IMG/VR virus record: IMGVR_UViG_3300036785_000572
Coordinates: 1-47,628 of that record
DNA from: a virus
Direction: 5' to 3' (one strand)
DNA: 47,628 nt
Shown: one piece after another, positions 5,188 to 47,628 of the stretch
How the letters are laid out: each line of letters opens with the position of its first letter
Numbering within the stretch: the first letter of the stretch is position 1
Notes under the pieces: generated by a model
The model's database searches: none
Seen by the model: the letters and a program-made list of their open reading frames with translations, nothing else
Told to the model about the DNA's origin: nothing
Position numbers and translations under genes: made by a program

Positions 5188-5684
5188 GTTTTATGCCAGC
5201 GGGCTGCCGCGGCGCGTCGCGCGCGCTCTCTGCGCTGCTCTGCCGGCCAACTTCGAGCGGCGCTGCCACCGCGGCGCCCCATCTCCGCAGCAATAAGACT
5301 TACCATGCGCCGGACAGTCTTCGGTCCTAAGCGCTTAGCACCTGGTGGACGCACCCGTTTGGCGTCGCGCTCCTCCCACAGCGGCTTCATCTTTCGGACC
5401 AGCATCGGATCGACGATCATCACCGACTTGACGCCGAGCACGCTCGCGATGCGAAACAGCGAGACCACCGAGAGGTGCTTGATGTGCAGGCCGGAGAGAT
5501 ACTTCTGGGTGCTGCCTTCGCCGAGCCCGGTCAGCTCGTCGAGCAGTCGATTGGAAAGCCCGATCTCGGCGATGCGATCGCGCAGCCTGTCGATCAGCGC
5601 ATCGTAGTCGGCAAACTCACCGATGACGGTCTCGCCGATCACGTCGACGATGCGCTTGCCGTCGAGATCGTGCCATGTCGTCAT
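5178..5684 (-). CDS. XRE-like HTH protein
   Basis: 168 aa. Residues 25-85 (LRDRIAEIGLSNRLLDELTGLGEGSTQKYLSGLHIKHLSVVSLFRIASVLG) have the order of helices of an XRE/Cro-type HTH. The middle carries a KMKPLWEERDAKR linker and the tail is rich in Arg/Ala (RRGGSAARSW...RRERARRAAAARW), a DNA-binding-like C-terminus common in proteins of this phage group. Last gene of the minus-strand early block and coupled to the alpha-CTD-like gene by ATGA overlap. Likely a transcription regulator; its target is unknown. Confidence 0.65.
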   Translation of the reverse strand: MTTWHDLDGKRIVDVIGETVIGEFADYDALIDRLRDRIAEIGLSNRLLDELTGLGEGSTQKYLSGLHIKHLSVVSLFRIASVLGVKSVMIVDPMLVRKMKPLWEERDAKRVRPPGAKRLGPKTVRRMVSLIAAEMGRRGGSAARSWPAEQRRERARRAAAARWHKTQA

Positions 5685-6103
5685 CGGTGGTAGCGAGATC
5701 GTTGTAGCGATAGCCCAAACTTTTGCAGGGCCTCCTCCACTTCATCGAGCGACAACTTGCCGAAGTTTGGAAGGCGCAGAAGCTCGCCGGGTGTGAGCTT
5801 GACCAGATCGCCGAGCGTCTTGTGGCCCGTGTTGTAGGTGGTGATGGCATTGTGGGCGCGCGCGCTAAGCTCAAGCTCGGCAATGCTCCTCGAAAGCAGA
5901 ACACCGTCTGGTTTGTCGGCGAAGCCAGCCAGGGCCTCGCGCAGCGCGACGATGTAGTTTGGCCCGCTGTCGCCCGACGAGCCGTCGAAGATGTGCTCCG
6001 GGTAATACTCTTCGAGCAGTGCGCGGCCGATGTGGACGATCGCCTTCCAGGCCTCGTCGCGGGCCAGCAAGGCGATCAGCTCCAGTCTCACTTCAGGGCT
6101 CAT
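5681..6103 (-). CDS. RNA polymerase alpha C-terminal-domain-like protein
   Basis: 140 aa. Residues 74-134 match the alpha-CTD fold: LELSARAHN, then TLGDLVKLTPGELLRLPNFGKLSLDEVEEAL. The positions equal to E. coli R265 and N268, used to read UP elements, are kept (R82, N85), as are N113, G115, K116 and S118. The residue equal to K298 is Leu. The N-terminal 70 residues replace the assembly domain with a different helical domain, so it cannot substitute for alpha. It may bind DNA or sigma and redirect the host polymerase. A GTG at 6109 overlapping the previous stop is an alternative start. Confidence 0.75.
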   Translation of the reverse strand: MSPEVRLELIALLARDEAWKAIVHIGRALLEEYYPEHIFDGSSGDSGPNYIVALREALAGFADKPDGVLLSRSIAELELSARAHNAITTYNTGHKTLGDLVKLTPGELLRLPNFGKLSLDEVEEALQKFGLSLQRSRYHR

Positions 6104-6105
6104 GT

Positions 6106-6501
6106 TCACCGCCCTTTGCAGCTGAGCTTGATGCCGACCAGATGCGGCGGTGGCTCAGGAAAGCCGCCGGGATGGCGCCACAGGTGCAGGCAATAGGGAT
6201 GGCAGTCGATATATTGCGAGGCGCGCGGATGAAATTGCACGACGCAGGCCTCGGCACTCCAGAACAGGTCCTTGACGAAACACATCTCGATCCAGTTGGG
6301 ACAGCGCCGATCGGTCGAGACGCTGACATGCTCCCAGCCCTGGGCATCGGGGTCCTGGCCGTCGGACGCCATGATGGTGAGCCTGGCGCCACATGGCCCT
6401 TGGACGATGAACAGACCGTTGCCGCCATAGGCCCGTGACGAGGCCAGCCGGCCGCGGTCGACACGGCCGGCCTCGAGCTTTTCCGGCAGCACGAGTTTCA
6501 T
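6106..6501 (-). CDS. DUF7694-like phage protein
   Basis: 131 aa. The C-terminal half has the conserved string of a family widespread in phages: GWEHVSVS, CPNWIEMCFVKDLFW, a QFHP segment, HPYCLHLWR. The Trp/Cys/His pattern suggests a small folded domain with possible metal or ligand binding, but the role is unknown. Start ATG 6501; it overlaps the preceding gene by 4 bases. Confidence 0.7.
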   Translation of the reverse strand: MKLVLPEKLEAGRVDRGRLASSRAYGGNGLFIVQGPCGARLTIMASDGQDPDAQGWEHVSVSTDRRCPNWIEMCFVKDLFWSAEACVVQFHPRASQYIDCHPYCLHLWRHPGGFPEPPPHLVGIKLSCKGR

Positions 6502-9172: not shown

Positions 9173-10195
9173 TTATTTACGAGATAGCAACTTGAACGGT
9201 ACGACTTTTCCTTTAGGGGCGAGTTTCTTGCGCCAGCTGGGAGCAACGTGCTCACCCAACTCTGCCAGTGCGAAGTCGATCTTCCGCAATGCTGCGGCAT
9301 CCTCCTCCGTTTCCAGCTTGGGAAGAACCTTCACGATCTCAGCAAGCTTTTCCGCAGCCGCGTCGGTAGTGAGCATCTTGGAGATGCTGTCTGCCACGGC
9401 CTCGCCGAACATAGCGAACAGCGGGGACTTGCTCGTTGAGCCCTGCGTTGATTTGTAGGCCTCAAAATCAACCTGTCCCCGCAAATTGCCGATGCCAAGG
9501 CCAGGTTTATTTTTGCGAAAATCTTTGGCGACGCGCTTAGCGCCCTTACCGATATGCTTCTTGGCCCTCTCGATCTCACCAGGCGGCCGTTGGGTTTTCT
9601 TCCCAAGCGCCTCAACTTGCTCCATGCGGGCTTGAGCGCGTGTTACGATTTCTCGAACCGCTTTTACTGATAGCTCACGCAAATCCGACTTATCTAGATA
9701 ACCGGCCTCAATAAGATTATGGCCGGCACTACAAGCTGCAGCAGTCGCATTTGCATGTTGGTTGTTATCGTGAACCCAACCAAGAAGCCTAGCAATTTCT
9801 ATGGGCTTATGCGATTTGGGATCCGCGGCCCCCAAGAATGACGTGCCCGCCTCCCACGTTTCCAACATGCATAAAAAGTCGGCGTTGTAATCCTCCATAT
9901 TTTCACGACCCATATACTGCAACATTTTCTCATCATTAAGGTCCTGCATGATGAGCATCACTCGCTTTATCTTGTTCTGTCGAGCCGCCTCGATGCGATG
10001 ATGTCCGAAGGCAATCTGAAACCGGTTGCCGGCTCGGCGAGCGATTACGCCCGGCCACATGCCTACATCATCGAACGATCGCCTTAGGGCCTCGATCTTG
10101 CTCTCGACGAATGGATAGTCCTTGAGCAGTCGATACGGGTTCGCATCGATTGCGGTGATCTCAGCGTCGAGTATTTCATTGCCCTGTTTCATCAT
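9173..10195 (-). CDS. ParB/Srx-domain protein
   Basis: 340 aa. The N-terminal 120 residues carry the ParB-type core: IDANPYR near residue 15, then GVIARR and the FGHHRIEAARQ box where ParB-family proteins bind CTP or cut DNA. A helical middle has HTH character, and a basic C-terminal half follows. Start ATG 10195 has AGGAG 5 bases before it. No ParA lies nearby, so a partition role is not supported. Phage ParB-like proteins also act as nucleases, transcription regulators or methylation partners. GC is lower than the flanking genes, suggesting separate acquisition. Confidence 0.75.
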   Translation of the reverse strand: MMKQGNEILDAEITAIDANPYRLLKDYPFVESKIEALRRSFDDVGMWPGVIARRAGNRFQIAFGHHRIEAARQNKIKRVMLIMQDLNDEKMLQYMGRENMEDYNADFLCMLETWEAGTSFLGAADPKSHKPIEIARLLGWVHDNNQHANATAAACSAGHNLIEAGYLDKSDLRELSVKAVREIVTRAQARMEQVEALGKKTQRPPGEIERAKKHIGKGAKRVAKDFRKNKPGLGIGNLRGQVDFEAYKSTQGSTSKSPLFAMFGEAVADSISKMLTTDAAAEKLAEIVKVLPKLETEEDAAALRKIDFALAELGEHVAPSWRKKLAPKGKVVPFKLLSRK

Positions 10196-10209
10196 TGCTC
10201 TCCTGGTTG

Positions 10210-10626
10210 TCACAGCCTCTCGATCCGCACGGCGAGCCCGGGTGTTTCGCCGAAAAATTTATGCACCGTGGCATCGGCGATCTGGGCGTCGTCGCGCCAT
10301 GCGATCTTGTTGAGCGCGTCGCCGACGATCTTGCCGATGTTGTCGTAGTCGGGCTTGGTCCAGCGCCAGCGGTTGGCGTCGCGCTTCTTCTGCGACCACG
10401 CCCGCGGCCACGGATAGCAGGCGAGCAGCGTGAGCTTGATCGGCCCTTCGAGCGGCGGCGCGCCCTTCATCGCGGTCGAGCAGATCAGCTTGAGCGCGGT
10501 CATGTAGTTCGCTTGTTTCGATGGCGTGTAGTGCGGTACGGTCTTGCCGCCGCGGGCGCGCGCCCACGGGACCAGCTCGCCGGGCACGACGAACTCGATC
10601 GCCGCGGTGGTGGCTGAGGTCAGCAT
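10210..10626 (-). CDS. rusA: RusA-family Holliday junction resolvase
   Basis: 138 aa from ATG 10626 (GGAGG upstream). It shows the RusA pattern: FVVPGELVPWARAR near residue 12, then KPDYDNIGKIVGDALNKIAWRDDAQI with the acidic residues D93, D95 and D112/D113 that form the metal site. It cuts four-way junctions made during phage recombination or replication. It lies in the lytic minus-strand operon, while Exo and Bet are in the opposite operon. Confidence 0.9.
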   Translation of the reverse strand: MLTSATTAAIEFVVPGELVPWARARGGKTVPHYTPSKQANYMTALKLICSTAMKGAPPLEGPIKLTLLACYPWPRAWSQKKRDANRWRWTKPDYDNIGKIVGDALNKIAWRDDAQIADATVHKFFGETPGLAVRIERL

Positions 10627-11090
10627 GGCGAGCCTCCGCGCGCGTTGAGCCAAGCGTGGTGTGGGCAGTACCGCGAGCCCTCGACCGCCATGCCGCCGCA
10701 GTAGAGCTTCGCCCGGATGTCGCGCTCCTGGTGGCCCCACATCGGCCAGTGGCAGGCGTCCTCGGTCAGCTCGGTGATCAGACAGGGCGAGGCGTGCAGC
10801 TCGGGCTGGCCGTGCTTGGTGCGGCTGGGTTCGGGAAACCTGGTGCGCGGCTGCCGCACCCATGGTGCCGGCATGGGCGCGCGAGGCGGCGGCGGCTGGC
10901 GATGGTGGCTGCGCTTGCCGCTCGGCTTCGGCTTGGGCTCGGGCCCGGGAAAATGCAGGCCCATGCGCGCGGCCTTGCCGATGACGGAGTTTTTGGTGGT
11001 GCCGAGTTCATCGGCGATGGCGCGCGCGCTGCATCCGTCGGCGCACATCCGCTTGAGATCATTGATGGAGATCGGGTTCCAATCGAACAT
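10620..11090 (-). CDS. gcrA: GcrA-family transcription regulator
   Basis: 156 aa. Residues 1-46 form the GcrA HTH (SARAIADELGTTKNSVIGKAARMGLHF). A Pro/Lys-rich linker follows, and the C-terminus has CHWPMWG (C113), C131, and YCPHHA (C142, H144, H145), the usual GcrA ending. In Caulobacter, GcrA binds sigma70 and methylated GANTC sites and activates cell-cycle promoters. A phage copy could redirect host RNA polymerase or sense host methylation state. First gene after the cro-like gene; a repressor-type operator (11124-11140) lies 34 bases upstream. Confidence 0.85.
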   Translation of the reverse strand: MFDWNPISINDLKRMCADGCSARAIADELGTTKNSVIGKAARMGLHFPGPEPKPKPSGKRSHHRQPPPPRAPMPAPWVRQPRTRFPEPSRTKHGQPELHASPCLITELTEDACHWPMWGHQERDIRAKLYCGGMAVEGSRYCPHHAWLNARGGSPC

Positions 11091-11123
11091 GACCTGTCAC
11101 GGATTTCATTTATGACTGTTATT

Positions 11124-11140
11124 TATACCTGGACGGAATG
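11124..11140. promoter_or_regulatory. Repressor-type operator, copy 1
   Basis: TATACC-tggac-GGAATG, 34 bases upstream of the gcrA-like start, overlapping a minus-strand TATAAA that may be a -10 box. It belongs to the family TATNCC-N5-GGNATR found at four other regulatory points in 11464-12012. Confidence 0.55.
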
Positions 11141-11269
11141 TCGCAGATCGTTCATCATCGGCGTTGCAATGCCGAAAATACCTCGAAGTCGGAGCACCGG
11201 CATGAGGCTTTGCAGCATCACAACTCTCACTCCGGACGGCCTTTCCGAGTTGCGCCTGTACGAGCGCGT

Positions 11270-11455
11270 TCAGTCCGACGTCCAGTCGTCGTATGACACC
11301 TTGCCATTGGTCGCATGCTTGATGCGGGTCATGACTTCGAAGCTTGGGATACGTCCGCTGGCATATCTCGACACGGCTGCTTGGCCGACGCCGATTTTAT
11401 CGGCGAATTCGCGTTGCAAGAGCCCCTTGCATTCGAGGAATTCGGCTAGCCGCAT
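11270..11455 (-). CDS. Cro-like repressor
   Basis: 61 aa, one HTH domain: REFADKIGVGQAAVSRYASGRIPSFEVM. It diverges from the CI-like gene, the standard lambda-type switch. A promoter TTGCAT-N16-TATATT (11489-11462 on the minus strand) places the transcript start at or next to the A of ATG 11455, so the message may be leaderless. One operator (11464-11480) lies between its -35 and -10. It would shut down the repressor and favour lytic growth. Confidence 0.75.
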   Translation of the reverse strand: MRLAEFLECKGLLQREFADKIGVGQAAVSRYASGRIPSFEVMTRIKHATNGKVSYDDWTSD

Positions 11456-11463
11456 ATCCTCAA

Positions 11464-11480
11464 TATACCTCGACGGCATA
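11464..11480. promoter_or_regulatory. Switch operator between cro -35 and -10
   Basis: TATACC-tcgac-GGCATA, an imperfect inverted repeat lying exactly in the 16-base spacer of the cro promoter (-35 TTGCAT at 11484-11489, -10 TATATT at 11462-11467, minus strand). Bound repressor would block cro transcription. Confidence 0.65.
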
Positions 11481-11559
11481 AGAATGCAAGCCGCCGCTGC
11501 ATATTCATGCGCGTATGAGGACAGCTCAAAAGTTCCGGTAGACAAAAAAGCGCAAGCAA

Positions 11560-11576
11560 TATACCGTCTCGGCATG
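11560..11576. promoter_or_regulatory. Switch operator over the cI start
   Basis: TATACC-gtctc-GGCATG. The last three bases are the ATG of the CI-like gene, and TATACC can serve as its -10 box. This position suggests that the repressor limits its own synthesis. Confidence 0.6.
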
Positions 11577-11939
11577 CCGATTAGAGATTTGCGCATTAAA
11601 GCCAAGTTGAACCAAGCCGAGCTTGCCGCAAAAGTTGGTATCGGCCAGTCCAGCCTGTCCCGCTATGAGAAGGGACGGGTGCCCGACATAGAGACGGCAA
11701 GGCGCTTGGCAGTGGCATTGAATGTCGCTCTGACGGACGTCCGCCCGGACCTCAAGGATATAGACGCCGCACCACCCCAGCCGGCCCCGCCGGCGCAATC
11801 AGCCCCTGCGATCGACAGGCTCGACCAGGTGCTGGAGCTGTTAAAATACGAAACCCCAGAGGTCAGGGAGCGGATCAGAGAGCGTGTCGCACGCGAAATT
11901 TTGGCGGTCCTTGTGGAAACTTACAAGGACTGCGCCTGA
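11574..11939 (+). CDS. CI-like phage repressor
   Basis: 121 aa. Residues 2-60 are an XRE HTH (RDLRIKAKLNQAELAAKVGIGQSSLSRYEKGRVPDIETARRLAVAL). After a Pro-rich linker, a helical C-terminus (LDQVLELLKYETPEVRERIRERVAREILAVLVE) may dimerise. There is no S24/LexA-type autocleavage domain, so induction probably does not use RecA-driven self-cutting. No ribosome site precedes ATG 11574, and the predicted -10 is 8 bases upstream, as for leaderless lambda cI. Lysogeny repressor acting on the five operators around it. Confidence 0.75.
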   Translation: MPIRDLRIKAKLNQAELAAKVGIGQSSLSRYEKGRVPDIETARRLAVALNVALTDVRPDLKDIDAAPPQPAPPAQSAPAIDRLDQVLELLKYETPEVRERIRERVAREILAVLVETYKDCA

Positions 11940-11952
11940 TTAGCTCAATGAA

Positions 11953-11969
11953 TATTCCACCACGGAATA
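11953..11969. promoter_or_regulatory. Repressor-type operator, perfect palindrome
   Basis: TATTCC-accac-GGAATA is a perfect inverted repeat (with one more matched base on each side: ATATTCC/GGAATAT). It lies just past the cI stop and 43 bases centre-to-centre from the next operator, close to four helical turns, a spacing that allows cooperative binding. Confidence 0.6.
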
Positions 11970-11988
11970 TCCAGCCGTTATTCCTATA

Positions 11989-12015
11989 TTGACTTTATAC
12001 CGCGGTGGCATAAGC
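11989..12015 (+). promoter_or_regulatory. Early plus-strand promoter with embedded operator
   Basis: TTGACT (11989-11994) is a good -35. The operator TATACC-gcggt-GGCATA (11996-12012) fills the spacer, and a weak -10 (ATAAGC type) follows. It would drive the Exo/Bet/array/integrase operon starting at 12115 and be shut by the CI-like repressor. Confidence 0.55.
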
Positions 12016-12114
12016 ATCGTTATGCCGCCGGCCTCGGTACGTGCCCCCGGCTCGCCGGATCAATCGCCCCGATGAGCCAGAGACCGGCGGCGCCCCTTGA
12101 TGGGAGGCGTCCCG

Positions 12115-12360
12115 ATGAAATCGAAGCCCAAAACTTTTGCCGCAAAAAAGAAGTCGGCCCCAGCGCGTGAGCCGAAGCCTGCCCCGCGCAAGGTGATCCA
12201 GGTCGCGCCGCTCGACGTCAGCAGCCCCTACCTGGCGATCGCGCTGTGTGATGACGGCACCGTCTGGCTGGTCACGCAGACCGGCGGCCTCAAGACCGCG
12301 ATCCACGAGCTGGTGAACTTGCCGGAGCCGGAGCCAAAGCGGGAACCGGAGCCGGCGTAA
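12115..12360 (+). CDS. Small protein before exonuclease gene
   Basis: 81 aa from ATG 12115, with GGGAGG upstream. Basic, disordered N-terminus (KSKPKTFAAKKKSAPAREPKPAPRK), then a short beta-rich part (YLAIALCDDGTVWLVTQTGG) and a Pro/Glu tail. First gene of the recombination operon. It overlaps the exonuclease start by one base (TAATG). Function unknown. Confidence 0.6.
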   Translation: MKSKPKTFAAKKKSAPAREPKPAPRKVIQVAPLDVSSPYLAIALCDDGTVWLVTQTGGLKTAIHELVNLPEPEPKREPEPA

Positions 12361-13591: not shown

Positions 13592-14512
13592 ATGACCAAG
13601 GTTGTCGCCGTTCCGCAAGGCACGAAGGCGGTTGCCTTCAGCACCGAACAGGTCGACCTGATCAAGCGAACGATCTGCAAGGGCGCGACCAACGACGAGC
13701 TGCAGTTGTTCATGCATCAGGCCGAACGCACCGGTCTAGATCCGCTGTCGCGGCAGATATACGCCGTCAAGCGGTGGGACGGTCAGCAGCGGCGCGAGGT
13801 CATGTCGATCCAGGTTTCGATCGACGGCTTACGTCTGATCGCCGAGCGAACCGGAAAATATAGAGGTCAGGTTGGCCCGCTCTGGTGCGGTTCCGATGGC
13901 GAGTGGTGCGACGTCTGGGTATCGGACGCGCTTCCTGCCGCAGCCAAGGTCGGCGTTCTGCGGTCGGACTTCACCGAGCCGTGCTGGGGCATCGCGCGCT
14001 TCTCCTCCTACGCACAGCGAAACAAGGAGGGCTTCCCAACTCGAATGTGGGCGACGATGCCCGACGTCATGACCGCCAAGTGCGCGGAGGCCCTAGCGCT
14101 GCGCAAGGCATTTCCGCAAGAGTTGTCCGGCCTCTACACGACCGATGAGATGGCACAGGCCGCCGCAGCACCGTCGGAACCAAGGCGCCCACCGCCACCG
14201 GCGCCCAACGTGATGGAGCCGCACGACCCCGAGACCGGAGAGATCGTCGACGACAGTTCGCCGCCGGCCCAAGTACCAAACTCGTCGACGGCGGCGACGA
14301 CCGCTCCGCCACCTCAGTTCCACGCCGAGGATGGCGGGGCGGTCCCTGACGAGCACGAGCTGACGCTCGACGAGGAGGCGCGCATGGCGGCGAGCCACGG
14401 TCGCGCAGCGTTCGAGGTGCTGTGGAAGCGGCTCAATTACGACGAGCGCAGGTCGCTCAACCCGATCATGGACGAGCTGGGCACGCTGACGCGGGAGGCG
14501 GATGCAAAATGA
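13592..14512 (+). CDS. bet: Bet-type single-strand annealing protein
   Basis: 306 aa. Residues 18-180 match phage recombination protein Bet: [42 protein letters not shown], then [12 protein letters not shown] and [13 protein letters not shown]. It coats the 3' tails made by the YqaJ exonuclease and pairs them with complementary strands. The C-terminal 110 residues are Pro/Ala-rich and may contact host single-strand-binding protein. Its stop overlaps the ATG of the array-bearing gene. Confidence 0.9.
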
Positions 14513-15327
14513 CGATCATCAAGGATGCCATGCACCGCGCCGGCTTCGACCGCAAGAAGTTCGAGCTGCGTGTCGTGCTCAAGAACTTCCTGCTGGCCGG
14601 CGGAACATACGAGGACGTCATCGGCATCCTCGACGAGCTGCGGAGCGAGGGCCACAGGACGGCTGTCCAACAGGACCAGAACGCGATTGCCCCCGCTCCG
14701 CCCCCGCTGCCGCGCGAGGACCATGGGAGCCGTGCCGTCTTGGGCCATGAACCTGCTGTCGACGCGCGGCAACCCATCACCGGCGAGGGCCAAATCTCGA
14801 TTGTCCAGCAGAACCATGTCGTAGATGCCTCCGCCGGTGCCCTCGTTCCCGGTGCTGACCAACTTGGTGGTGTCCAGCAGGACCAAGTTCATGTTGTCGG
14901 CGCCGGGACACCTCTTCCGGGTGAAGGCCGGTCCACAGTTGTCGGAGACGACCACCGATCGAGTGCCGACACCCGGAAACCCATCACGGGCGGTGTGGCC
15001 ACCCCAGGTGCGCCTGCAAAGGCCAGTATACCTCCGCCGCCCGCCCGTGAGCCCGACGAGGCCTACAAGCGTGCCGTGGCGCGGTCGCGGGCCGAGACCG
15101 CCAAGGTGCAGCTGGAGCTGCGCAAGACCAGCAACGGCACACCGTGGGGCAGTGTGAAGCCATACGAGTTCGTCGGCATGGAGCGCGATGGCCACATCGC
15201 CTGGGCCATCCGCGAAACCTTCGGACCGTTCTCACCCAAACAGGAGCAGATGGAGCTGCGGCAGTTCCTGCCCGATGAAATCTTCAAGAGGGCGCTGACG
15301 CTCGCCGAGATCGATCATGTTCGCTGA
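14509..15327 (+). CDS. Two-domain protein split by a 23-residue repeat linker
   Basis: 272 aa. Residues 1-44 are a helical domain ([28 protein letters not shown]). Residues about 45-180 are repeats of 23 residues beginning VQQDQ/VQQNH. Residues 180-272 are a conserved helical domain ([49 protein letters not shown]). The linker repeats are better conserved in DNA than in protein and fold as six stem-loops (see the array feature). The terminal domains are of a type I associate with rhizobial phages, without known function. It is coupled to bet (ATGA) and overlaps the next frame by 11 bases. Confidence 0.7.
14641..15050 (+). repeat. Array A: six stem-loop modules, 69-base period
   Basis: Modules: S1 14641-14700, S2 14710-14769, S3 14779-14838, S4 14848-14907, S5 14917-14976, S6 14984-15050. 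Each has an outer stem of 7-15 bp, CA plus 10 variable bases, an apical hairpin (GTCC-AGCA-GGAC type) plus CA, 9 variable bases, and the closing stem. Outer stems change in pairs: CGGAGCG/CGCTCCG in S1, ACCGGCG/CGCCGGT in S3, CCCGGTGCTGAC/GTCGGCGCCGGG in S4. Apical pairs also change together: GTCC/GGAC, GCC/GGC (S2), GCCT/AGGC (S6). Likely a structured RNA inside a coding sequence. Confidence 0.85.
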
Positions 15328-45514: not shown

Positions 45515-47008
45515 TCATGCACTGATCCTCCGCATCGAGCGCCGCGCATAGACCTTCATCGGCTTCATCGCATTGACGTCGCCGGAGCCCGCCATGCGGC
45601 CGCCTTCGCCGAGCGCGATGCAGCCGTACTGCAGGCAGTCGCACAGGTTCGAATACTTGTCTTTTTTCGGTCGCAGCTCGCCGTCCTCCTCCTTGACCAG
45701 GTGATAGCGGCCGGCCATGCCGATGATCAGGGTGCGGCATAGCGGCGAGAACACCAGGCGGTTGATGCCGGAGGGGTTGTCGTTGAGCGCATAGGCCACC
45801 GCCTCGATGCGCAGGTCGATGTTGTTGTACTTCACCGGCGCCGGGATGACGTGCATGCCGTGGCCCTCGAACACCTCATAGGCCGACTGCTCGGTCGCCT
45901 GGCCGCGCTGCTTGCCGGCGGGGTCGCCGGTGCAGCGGAACGCCAGCCCCGGATAGTTTTGCGCCAAAAACCGTTTTACCTTCGGCGCGAAGATCGTCGC
46001 CCCTTCGTTGAAGCCGAGCATCTCGTACTGCACGTTGATGCGGCCGTTGATCTCCTGGGCGAACAGCGCCGCCGGGAAGACGCGCCCGAAGTCGAGCCAC
46101 ACCAGGACATCGTGACCGGGGATCGGGCGCAGCGGCTCGGCGGCGACATGGAAGTCGCGGCGGAACATCGGCCACACCGGCGAGCCCTCGACCACCAGGG
46201 CGACGACATTGCGCAGGCGAGAGTCGATCCACGCCTTCGACTTCGACTTGAGCGCCTGGGGATAGTAGCCGGGGCGCAGGTTTTCGAGGTTCTCGGCGTC
46301 GGGGTTGATCTTGTAGCCGGAGAGGATGCCGCGGGCGTCGCGCTCCTCGATCACCGCCGGCGGCTGCATGAAGAACTGCCATTCGCCCGGCCACTGGTAT
46401 TCGAGGCGCTCGTCGTCGGTGAGGTCGGGCGGCATCGGCACCTGGCCGGTCATAATGGCGAGCCAGTGGTCCTCGTCGGGCGCGTTGGTGTCGGCGATCA
46501 TGCCGTGCCACGCCGAGCCGCCATGGGCGGGCCCGGGATAGCGCAGGCGGGCGGAGGCCTCGTCGACCAGGGTCTTGGGGATGAACGACAGCTCGTTCCA
46601 GGCGATGCCGGTGAATTCGAACGAGCGCAGCTTGTTGTAGTCGTCGGGCTTGTCGAGGGCGAGGAAGATCACCTCGGCATCGACGTCACCGAACTTGAGG
46701 TGGTGCGAGGGCGGCGGCGCCCAGTTGATGCGGCCGTAGATTTCTTCGGGAACCAGGGTCGGCTCCAACCAGGTCTTGATGGTGGTGTTGCGCAGCTCCG
46801 GATAGGTGTTGCGCACGATGCCCCAGCGCGAGCGGCGCGTGCCGGTGAGCTTCGAGACGTTCTGCGTCTGGATGTGGCGCATGATGCGCGCCAGCATCGC
46901 CTGGGTCTTGCCCGAGCCCAGCGGGCCCTGGATGATGTCGAAGAACCCGTTGGAGAGACAGAACTCGGCAACCCTGGTGTTGTTGCGTAGATGAAATTGT
47001 CCGCTCAT
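45515..47008 (-). CDS. terL: Terminase large subunit
   Basis: 497 aa. ATPase half: Walker A GPLGSGKT (28-35), Walker B-like strand ending in FTGIAWNELSFI with the catalytic Glu. Nuclease half: VLVWLDFGRVFPAALF with a metal-binding Asp, GDPAGKQRG, and DKYSNLCDCLQY near the C-terminus. It packages DNA into the procapsid through the portal. ATG 47008 has GGAAAGGAC upstream. The first 86 codons recur at the left contig edge. Confidence 0.92.
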   Translation of the reverse strand: MSGQFHLRNNTRVAEFCLSNGFFDIIQGPLGSGKTQAMLARIMRHIQTQNVSKLTGTRRSRWGIVRNTYPELRNTTIKTWLEPTLVPEEIYGRINWAPPPSHHLKFGDVDAEVIFLALDKPDDYNKLRSFEFTGIAWNELSFIPKTLVDEASARLRYPGPAHGGSAWHGMIADTNAPDEDHWLAIMTGQVPMPPDLTDDERLEYQWPGEWQFFMQPPAVIEERDARGILSGYKINPDAENLENLRPGYYPQALKSKSKAWIDSRLRNVVALVVEGSPVWPMFRRDFHVAAEPLRPIPGHDVLVWLDFGRVFPAALFAQEINGRINVQYEMLGFNEGATIFAPKVKRFLAQNYPGLAFRCTGDPAGKQRGQATEQSAYEVFEGHGMHVIPAPVKYNNIDLRIEAVAYALNDNPSGINRLVFSPLCRTLIIGMAGRYHLVKEEDGELRPKKDKYSNLCDCLQYGCIALGEGGRMAGSGDVNAMKPMKVYARRSMRRISA

Positions 47009-47044
47009 CGTCCTTTCCGCTCTGGCTACGCCAACCGCTCAAAA

Positions 47045-47284
47045 CTATTCGGTGCGTCCGCCGGTGATGAAGTCGTGCATCGCGAACGCCAACGCGCCCG
47101 CCATCGCCAGCTTGTTCTTGTGGCCGCTCCCCCGCGTCATGAAGGCGCCGTCGGAAGCGCGGATGATGACCGCCACGTAGCTTTCGATCTCGCCGGCCTT
47201 GGCGCGCTGCAGCAAGTCCTCAAGGCCATCAATGACCTCCCGAGGGTCCTCATTGCGCTTAAGGTCGACGACCTTGAGGGTCAC
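47045..47284 (-). CDS. Small conserved protein upstream of terL (right copy)
   Basis: 79 aa, a variant of the gene at 305-541: E to D, R to Q and V to I changes and a TE ending instead of K. The changes are conservative and the frame is kept. The copies are therefore two functional alleles rather than sequencing noise. Confidence 0.7.
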   Translation of the reverse strand: MTLKVVDLKRNEDPREVIDGLEDLLQRAKAGEIESYVAVIIRASDGAFMTRGSGHKNKLAMAGALAFAMHDFITGGRTE

Positions 47285-47421
47285 CGGCTTCGCTTCTTCT
47301 TCGCCTTGCCGGCGGTGCGCAGCGCAATCGCCACCGCCTGCTTCTGCGGCCGGCCGGCGGCCTTCTCGGCCTTGATGTTGGACGACACCGTCGCCCGCGA
47401 GCTTCCCTTCTTCAATGGCAT
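47281..47421 (-). CDS. DUF6496-like small basic protein (right copy)
   Basis: 46 aa, variant of 538-684 with a tail shorter by two residues. AGGAGAGG again precedes this ATG (47421). The upstream open extension holds five extra residues relative to the left copy. Same family and same caveats on start choice. Confidence 0.65.
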   Translation of the reverse strand: MPLKKGSSRATVSSNIKAEKAAGRPQKQAVAIALRTAGKAKKKRSR

Positions 47422-47482
47422 GAGCCTCTCCTCCGCCAAGCGTAACAACTCCGCAATGGTGCGAGACTTCATGATGAGACCG

Positions 47483-47628
47483 CTATCCCGAGCCATGGAC
47501 CCTCTCGCGGTGGTCGAGGCGGTACTGCAGCCGCTGGATGATCGCGATCTGCGAGCGGATGGTCGCCGCCTGCTCGCCATTGACGTGCACCAGGTCGGCG
47601 ATCCTACGCTCAAGCAGGGCCACCGGGC
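47483..47628 (-). CDS. Small helical phage protein, C-terminal fragment (right copy)
   Basis: The last 48 codons of the gene seen whole at 731-1003, cut by the contig edge. It has the same stop codon and nearly the same protein, with one visible K-to-R change near the end. Confidence 0.65.
   Translation of the reverse strand, partial: PVALLERRIADLVHVNGEQAATIRSQIAIIQRLQYRLDHRERVHGSG

Follow-up and report, generated by a model that had tools for sequence, protein, structure and literature searches.

The switch region and its question

Does a cluster of five near-identical inverted repeats, lying among the early genes of an uncultured virus, constitute the operators of its lysis/lysogeny switch? 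The repeats were identified in a first-pass annotation of the complete IMG/VR record IMGVR_UViG_3300036785_000572, a stretch of 47,628 bases that we refer to as the window. Based on the analyses described below, we consider it very probable (approximately 0.9) that the five sites are operators of a lambda-like switch, with binding predicted from sequence. What the DNA shows directly is that the sites exist, where they lie, that they occur nowhere else in the record, and that they co-vary with the repressor genes.

Five copies of one inverted repeat

The motif scan covered all 47,628 bases. It found exactly five copies of TATNCC-N5-GGNATR, all within 11,124-12,012 and each at the position originally reported:

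11124..11140, no strand: operator site 1, TATACCTGGACGGAATG; 33 bp upstream of the gcrA start; leave-one-out rank 1, 17.8 bits
11464..11480, no strand: operator site 2 (OR-like), TATACCTCGACGGCATA; 8 bp before the cro start codon, overlapping the proposed cro -10 element and spacer
11560..11576, no strand: operator site 3 (OR-like), TATACCGTCTCGGCATG; the cI start codon makes up its final three bases
11953..11969, no strand: operator site 4 (OL-like), TATTCCACCACGGAATA; a perfect 6+6 palindrome directly after the cI stop codon
11996..12012, no strand: operator site 5 (OL-like), TATACCGCGGTGGCATA; between the -35 (TTGACT) and -10 elements of the proposed recombination-operon promoter

The sites share a pair of 6-base arms separated by a centre of constant length. 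Thus, the first-pass description of shared half-sites around a 5-base centre was correct for the arms and for the centre's length, but not for its sequence, which differs among the sites. Similarly, the site at 11953 is a perfect palindrome in its 6+6 arms but not over its whole length. Sites 11953 and 11996 are 43 bp apart, between cI and the recombination operon.

The first-pass annotation had named numerous sites elsewhere in the genome as evidence against its proposal; none occurred in the rest of the record, even with one mismatch allowed. Specifically, the one-mismatch scan yielded 10 strand-matches, every one of them from the five sites, against an expectation of 1.89 ± 1.50. None of 100 shuffles reached 10 strand-matches, and a reversed control pattern had 0 matches in the record. 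As the motif had been fitted by eye to the same five sites, leave-one-out scoring was added, in which each site was scored against all positions of the record using a matrix built from the other four. All five sites ranked first, at 17.2-19.9 bits versus at most 10.1 bits at the best other position. A motif-free test found a cluster of five in a 1,026-base region, compared with a maximum of four in 400 shuffles. This last test carries little weight, since GC-rich tiles in other parts of the window likewise yield clusters of 4-6.

Genes and promoters around the sites

The genes and proposed promoters of the region are as follows:

10620..11090, minus strand: gcrA-like gene (phage-encoded GcrA cell-cycle regulator; PF07750, E 6.1e-19)
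11270..11455, minus strand: cro-like gene, 61 aa, XRE/HTH_3 (PF01381, E 5.9e-9)
11574..11939, plus strand: cI-like repressor gene, 121 aa, HTH_3 and a short C-terminal region (PF01381, E 5.5e-17)
12115..12360, plus strand: p81, 81 aa, first gene of the putatively controlled operon; homologues in L003, L004, and L013
12360..13148, plus strand: YqaJ-type recombination nuclease gene (PF09588, E 3.8e-13)
13592..14512, plus strand: RecT-type recombinase gene (PF03837, E 1.2e-29)
11462..11489, minus strand: proposed cro promoter, TTGCAT-N16-TATATT; 8/12 consensus bases, below the scanner threshold
11539..11565, plus strand: proposed cI promoter, TAGACA-N15-TATACC; 9/12 consensus bases with a short spacer
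11989..12017, plus strand: proposed recombination-operon promoter, TTGACT-N16/17-TAAGCA/AAGCAT; 7-8/12, architecture kept in L003, L004, and L013

The cro and cI genes form a divergent pair of HTH repressor genes, both matching PF01381, and their products resemble each other (39.6% over the HTH). Pfam searches matched the 121-aa CI-like protein to the HTH and found no S24 peptidase domain in it, and gave no match for the p81 protein. Annotated phages gave no match, either by nucleotide similarity or in a tblastn search with the CI-like protein. Other searches with the CI-like protein were uninformative: IMG/VR gave only two weak HTH-only matches, and genome contigs gave one HTH-only match in a rumen bacterium (L036). 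Cro alone had no match in IMG/VR. Solved structures matched only as designed or generic HTH proteins; the HTH fold was already clear by sequence.

The promoter scanner reported no promoter above threshold in the switch region, the -35 element before gcrA is poor, and the promoters listed above are proposed from weak consensus matches. From the geometry of these candidates, cro RNA is predicted to start at the cro ATG and cI RNA at or next to the cI ATG; both mRNAs would be leaderless. Site 11464, first placed within the spacer of the cro promoter, does overlap that spacer and additionally the proposed -10 element, such that binding would block cro. Site 11560 covers the cI start, as first noted, and its occupancy would autoregulate cI. 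Site 11996 indeed falls inside the spacer of the candidate TTGACT-N16/17 promoter, and site 11953 overlaps no obvious promoter. The cro and gcrA genes are approximately 180 bp apart, and the gap (11091-11269), which contains no clear gene and houses site 11124, contrasts with the arrangement in L003, L004, and L013.

Proposed mechanism

In the proposed switch, the 61-aa Cro (minus strand) and the 121-aa CI-like protein (plus strand), two related XRE repressors, would bind the 17-bp TATNCC-N5-GGNATA sequence as dimers; use of the same operators by both is suggested by the similarity of their HTH regions. One OR-like pair of sites would act in the divergent cro-cI region. An OL-like pair would act between cI and p81-YqaJ-RecT, where occupancy would block the early recombination operon. 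The remaining site, 11124, lies before gcrA, and from it we predict that the same repressors switch off the GcrA encoded by the phage. The sites would be occupied by CI in the lysogen, and Cro would lower the activity of the early promoters during lytic growth. We infer binding, dimers, and promoter positions as well as which protein dominates at each site. Because the CI-like protein is short and lacks S24, RecA-dependent cleavage is not expected. The initial suggestion that site placement explains control of both early operons and of the switch itself is supported, with binding predicted and the promoters proposed from weak consensus matches.

Relatives with other repressors

Relatives of the window were obtained from a YqaJ search, which returned 15 loci. 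Three of these, L003, L004, and L013, retain gcrA (67-78%) and p81 and YqaJ (88-93%) but differ in their repressors, and they contain zero copies of TATNCC-N5-GGNATR. In L003 and L004, the equivalent promoters carry CCAAYT-N-ARTTGG: CCAACTCAGTTGG (with one base changed in L003) and CCAATTGAGTTGG occur in the cro-like and p81 promoters, with a one-mismatch copy of the repeat between these two promoter sites. The number of sites in L003 and L004 is only moderately above chance, being reached by 4/200 and 2/200 shuffles. In L013, whose Cro is 50% identical to that of the window, the equivalent promoters carry DTTACC-N5-GGCATA, which in the cro-cI region and the p81 promoter reads GTTACC/ATTACC-N5-GGCATA. 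A one-mismatch site at 6753-6769 in L013 is 8 bp from the cro ATG (cro start, 6744), the same offset as window site 11464. One more exact copy of the L013 repeat lies outside the switch, at 14832. Free clustering of palindromes in the three relatives gave nothing useful, as GC-rich coding palindromes dominate.

In both types of relative, a different inverted repeat is placed as window site 5 is, in the recombination-operon promoter. As relatives with other repressors carry other repeats at equivalent promoters, the operator changes with the repressor cassette. This is the co-variation of repressor and motif that the first reading had suggested looking for, and at the sequence level it matches the shift in operator specificity expected of heteroimmune relatives.

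Recurrence beside related switch genes

Cro was compared with annotated phages and plasmids using tblastn, which matched Microcystis, Pseudomonas, and other phages as well as a Shinella plasmid. The Microcystis phages Mae-JY02 and Mel-JY03 have an exact match to the motif 12 bp before cro. Mae-JY35 contains four related sites and the Shinella plasmid five, two of them beyond cI, and L047 has GTCACC-N5-GGTGAC sites in the same layout. Overall, a CC-N5-GG palindrome ends no more than 15 bp upstream of cro in 7 of 17 Cro homologues, as compared to at most 1 in 1,000 shuffles; a clear gap-5 CC/GG palindrome is absent upstream of cro in the other 10. Among all gap/core combinations, CC-N5-GG was the best, and no other exceeded 3 of the 17. 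Leaving out the window and L028, which had been selected by motif, the count was 5/15.

Within the motif-sharing phages, the Cro proteins belong to one subfamily and are 30-50% identical to the window's Cro. The CI proteins vary, being 121, 139, or 178 aa or longer with LexA-like C-terminal parts. The first-pass annotation had expected a specific operator that could predict immunity groups. The proposed operator has a sequence of its own; as the motif is common to unrelated phages, it cannot alone define an immunity group. Sharing it suggests a common immunity group and is not proof.

IMG/VR was also scanned by DNA alone for two nearby motif sites, with TATGCC-first and TATACC-first pairs run separately. 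The TATGCC-first scan retrieved nine loci, L028 included, and 7/9 have a site at most 150 bp upstream of an XRE domain, compared to a random-position rate of 0.026. L028, found solely through its DNA motif, has four sites, two at cro and two beyond cI. Its second pair lies between cI and the next rightward gene, which has a weak nuclease-like match, following the plan of the window. L065 repeats the whole plan, with site pairs on both sides of cI. Sites flank cI on both sides in L013, L028, L039, L054, L058, and L065, and more weakly in L037, L047, and L050. The operator scan thus retrieves switch regions in unrelated phages.

The TATACC-first scan retrieved 10 loci, one of which, L028, has XRE genes. 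The other nine look like chance matches or repeats: they are mostly AT-rich contigs in which the pattern is likely chance or simple repeat, and the motif pairs of L027 and L032 are repeats in AT-rich DNA.

The centre spacings of operator pairs are often 24-25, 34-35, or 42-43 bp, based on L028, L039, L054, L047, L050, L058, L065, and window positions 11953-12012; the data are few and other spacings occur. These steps of approximately one helical turn would fit cooperative binding.

Alternative explanations

Three other readings of the sites were weighed. That they are chance or promoter-composition matches, with TATA-like -10 elements taken for half-sites, draws on the facts that the half-site TATACC adds to -10-like hexamers and that these five sequences were themselves the source of the motif. 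This reading is barely credible given the leave-one-out scores (17-20 bits versus at most 10 anywhere else), the failure of any of the 100 shuffles to reach the observed count, and the recurrence of the motif beside switch genes in independent phages. The location of the sites in or near promoter elements would also suit a host transcription factor site used by phage early promoters. The close relatives speak against this: they share the flanking genes, and hence probably have similar hosts, but have no copies of the motif. Moreover, the motif follows Cro homologues across phages of different recorded hosts and onto the Shinella plasmid. A host factor is accordingly very improbable, if slightly less so than chance.

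A stronger competitor, although still unlikely, is a Cro regulon: the sites, and their equivalents in relatives, would be bound only by Cro, and the CI-like protein would recognize something else. It gains from the pattern among the motif-sharing phages, in which a single Cro subfamily accompanies CI proteins of varying length and type. However, the switch region shows no other prominent repeated inverted repeat, and the HTH of the CI-like protein resembles that of Cro. Site 11560 over the cI start and the two sites past the cI 3' end are also where control by CI predicts them, and lambda-like switches as a rule have operators that CI and Cro share. We therefore favour operators shared by both repressors.

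Comparison with known systems

The lambda operators are 17 bp, with the EMBOSS consensus TAtCACCGCcaGTGaTA (PMC10742460). As in lambda OR/OL, the sites in the window are 17-bp imperfect inverted repeats clustered on both sides of cI: 11464 and 11560 lie in the cI-cro intergenic region, and 11953 and 11996 form a second cluster beyond cI, at the proposed promoter of the early recombination operon. Two HTH proteins that use common operators to control cro, cI, and this operon, as predicted here, would also be lambda-like. In contrast to lambda, the specificity is another one, with CC at positions 5-6 and a 5-bp centre, and the sites are arranged as 2+2+1 rather than 3+3 and are spaced by up to 96 bp in the cro-cI region. 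There is also an extra site at the phage gcrA, and the 121-aa CI-like protein lacks the S24/LexA-like self-cleavage domain associated with SOS induction. The layout is thus lambda-like, and the CI-like protein is not classed as a lambda-type CI. The switch of phage 933W has only five operator sites (PMC10742460), as here; host and sequence differ, and the likeness is one of site number.

Lysogeny modules of Paracoccus phages such as vB_PthS_Pthi1 contain a divergent XRE CI/Cro pair, mostly without S24 (PMC6536676). The window resembles these phages of Alphaproteobacteria in both respects. The Pthi1 Cro is 58.6% identical to the Microcystis-phage Cro whose gene has the exact motif match; Pthi1 itself has one-mismatch versions only, whereas the window has exact sites. 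The words 'operator' and 'palindrome' are absent from the main text of the Paracoccus phage paper (PMC6536676). The stoperators of mycobacteriophages L5/Bxb1 are 20-30 asymmetric sites distributed genome-wide, whose sequence co-varies with the repressor (PMC6550527). The window shares with them several repressor sites per genome and a site sequence that co-varies with the repressor, but its five near-palindromic sites are confined to 0.9 kb, and they are not stoperators. Phage-encoded GcrA is known from Caulobacter phages (PMC3556154).

The operators of Rhizobium phage 16-3 provide a further lead for comparison. A search of the PubMed Central literature found no description of the present operator, which is not proof of absence. 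Overall, the arrangement is classical; the binding sequence is distinct and is found again next to related switch genes in phages that infect other bacteria. The system is thus a known kind with a new, predicted operator specificity.

Implications

DNA alone suffices to read the switch of this uncultured phage, whose host is probably alphaproteobacterial. As a broader reading, which we offer tentatively and hold to be somewhat less than an even chance, small phage Cro proteins of a single subfamily would recognize CC-N5-GG repeats, with outer bases that differ from repressor to repressor (TATNCC here, DTTACC in L013, GTCACC in L047), making the immunity specificity of uncultured phages predictable from DNA; here, the same repressors would also directly control the phage GcrA and so couple the lysis/lysogeny decision to a regulator of the host cell cycle. 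If the CC-N5-GG code is true, it would become possible to predict the operators of many temperate phages known from metagenomes, and their likely immunity groups. The gcrA operator, if real, would connect a prophage repressor directly with a cell-cycle regulator.

Other features of the record

GANTC, the CcrM methylation site, is strongly depleted in the window (9 occurrences versus 212.6 expected), and L003, L004, and L013 have 5-9 versus 60-77 expected. Taken with the phage gcrA, this depletion suggests that the host is alphaproteobacterial and that GANTC is selected against. A 142-aa protein encoded at 5681-6109 (minus strand) ends in an RNA polymerase alpha C-terminal domain (PF03118, E 2.1e-15) and is a possible phage-encoded transcription factor. 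A ParB_N protein (PF02195) is encoded at 9173-10213 (minus strand), and no integrase was found among the window proteins searched; a plasmid-like prophage is possible on these grounds. Finally, the first 876 bases (1-876) match the last 879 (46750-47628) at 91.7%. The two ends of the contig probably join, through an overlap that is imperfect or a terminal repeat that has diverged.
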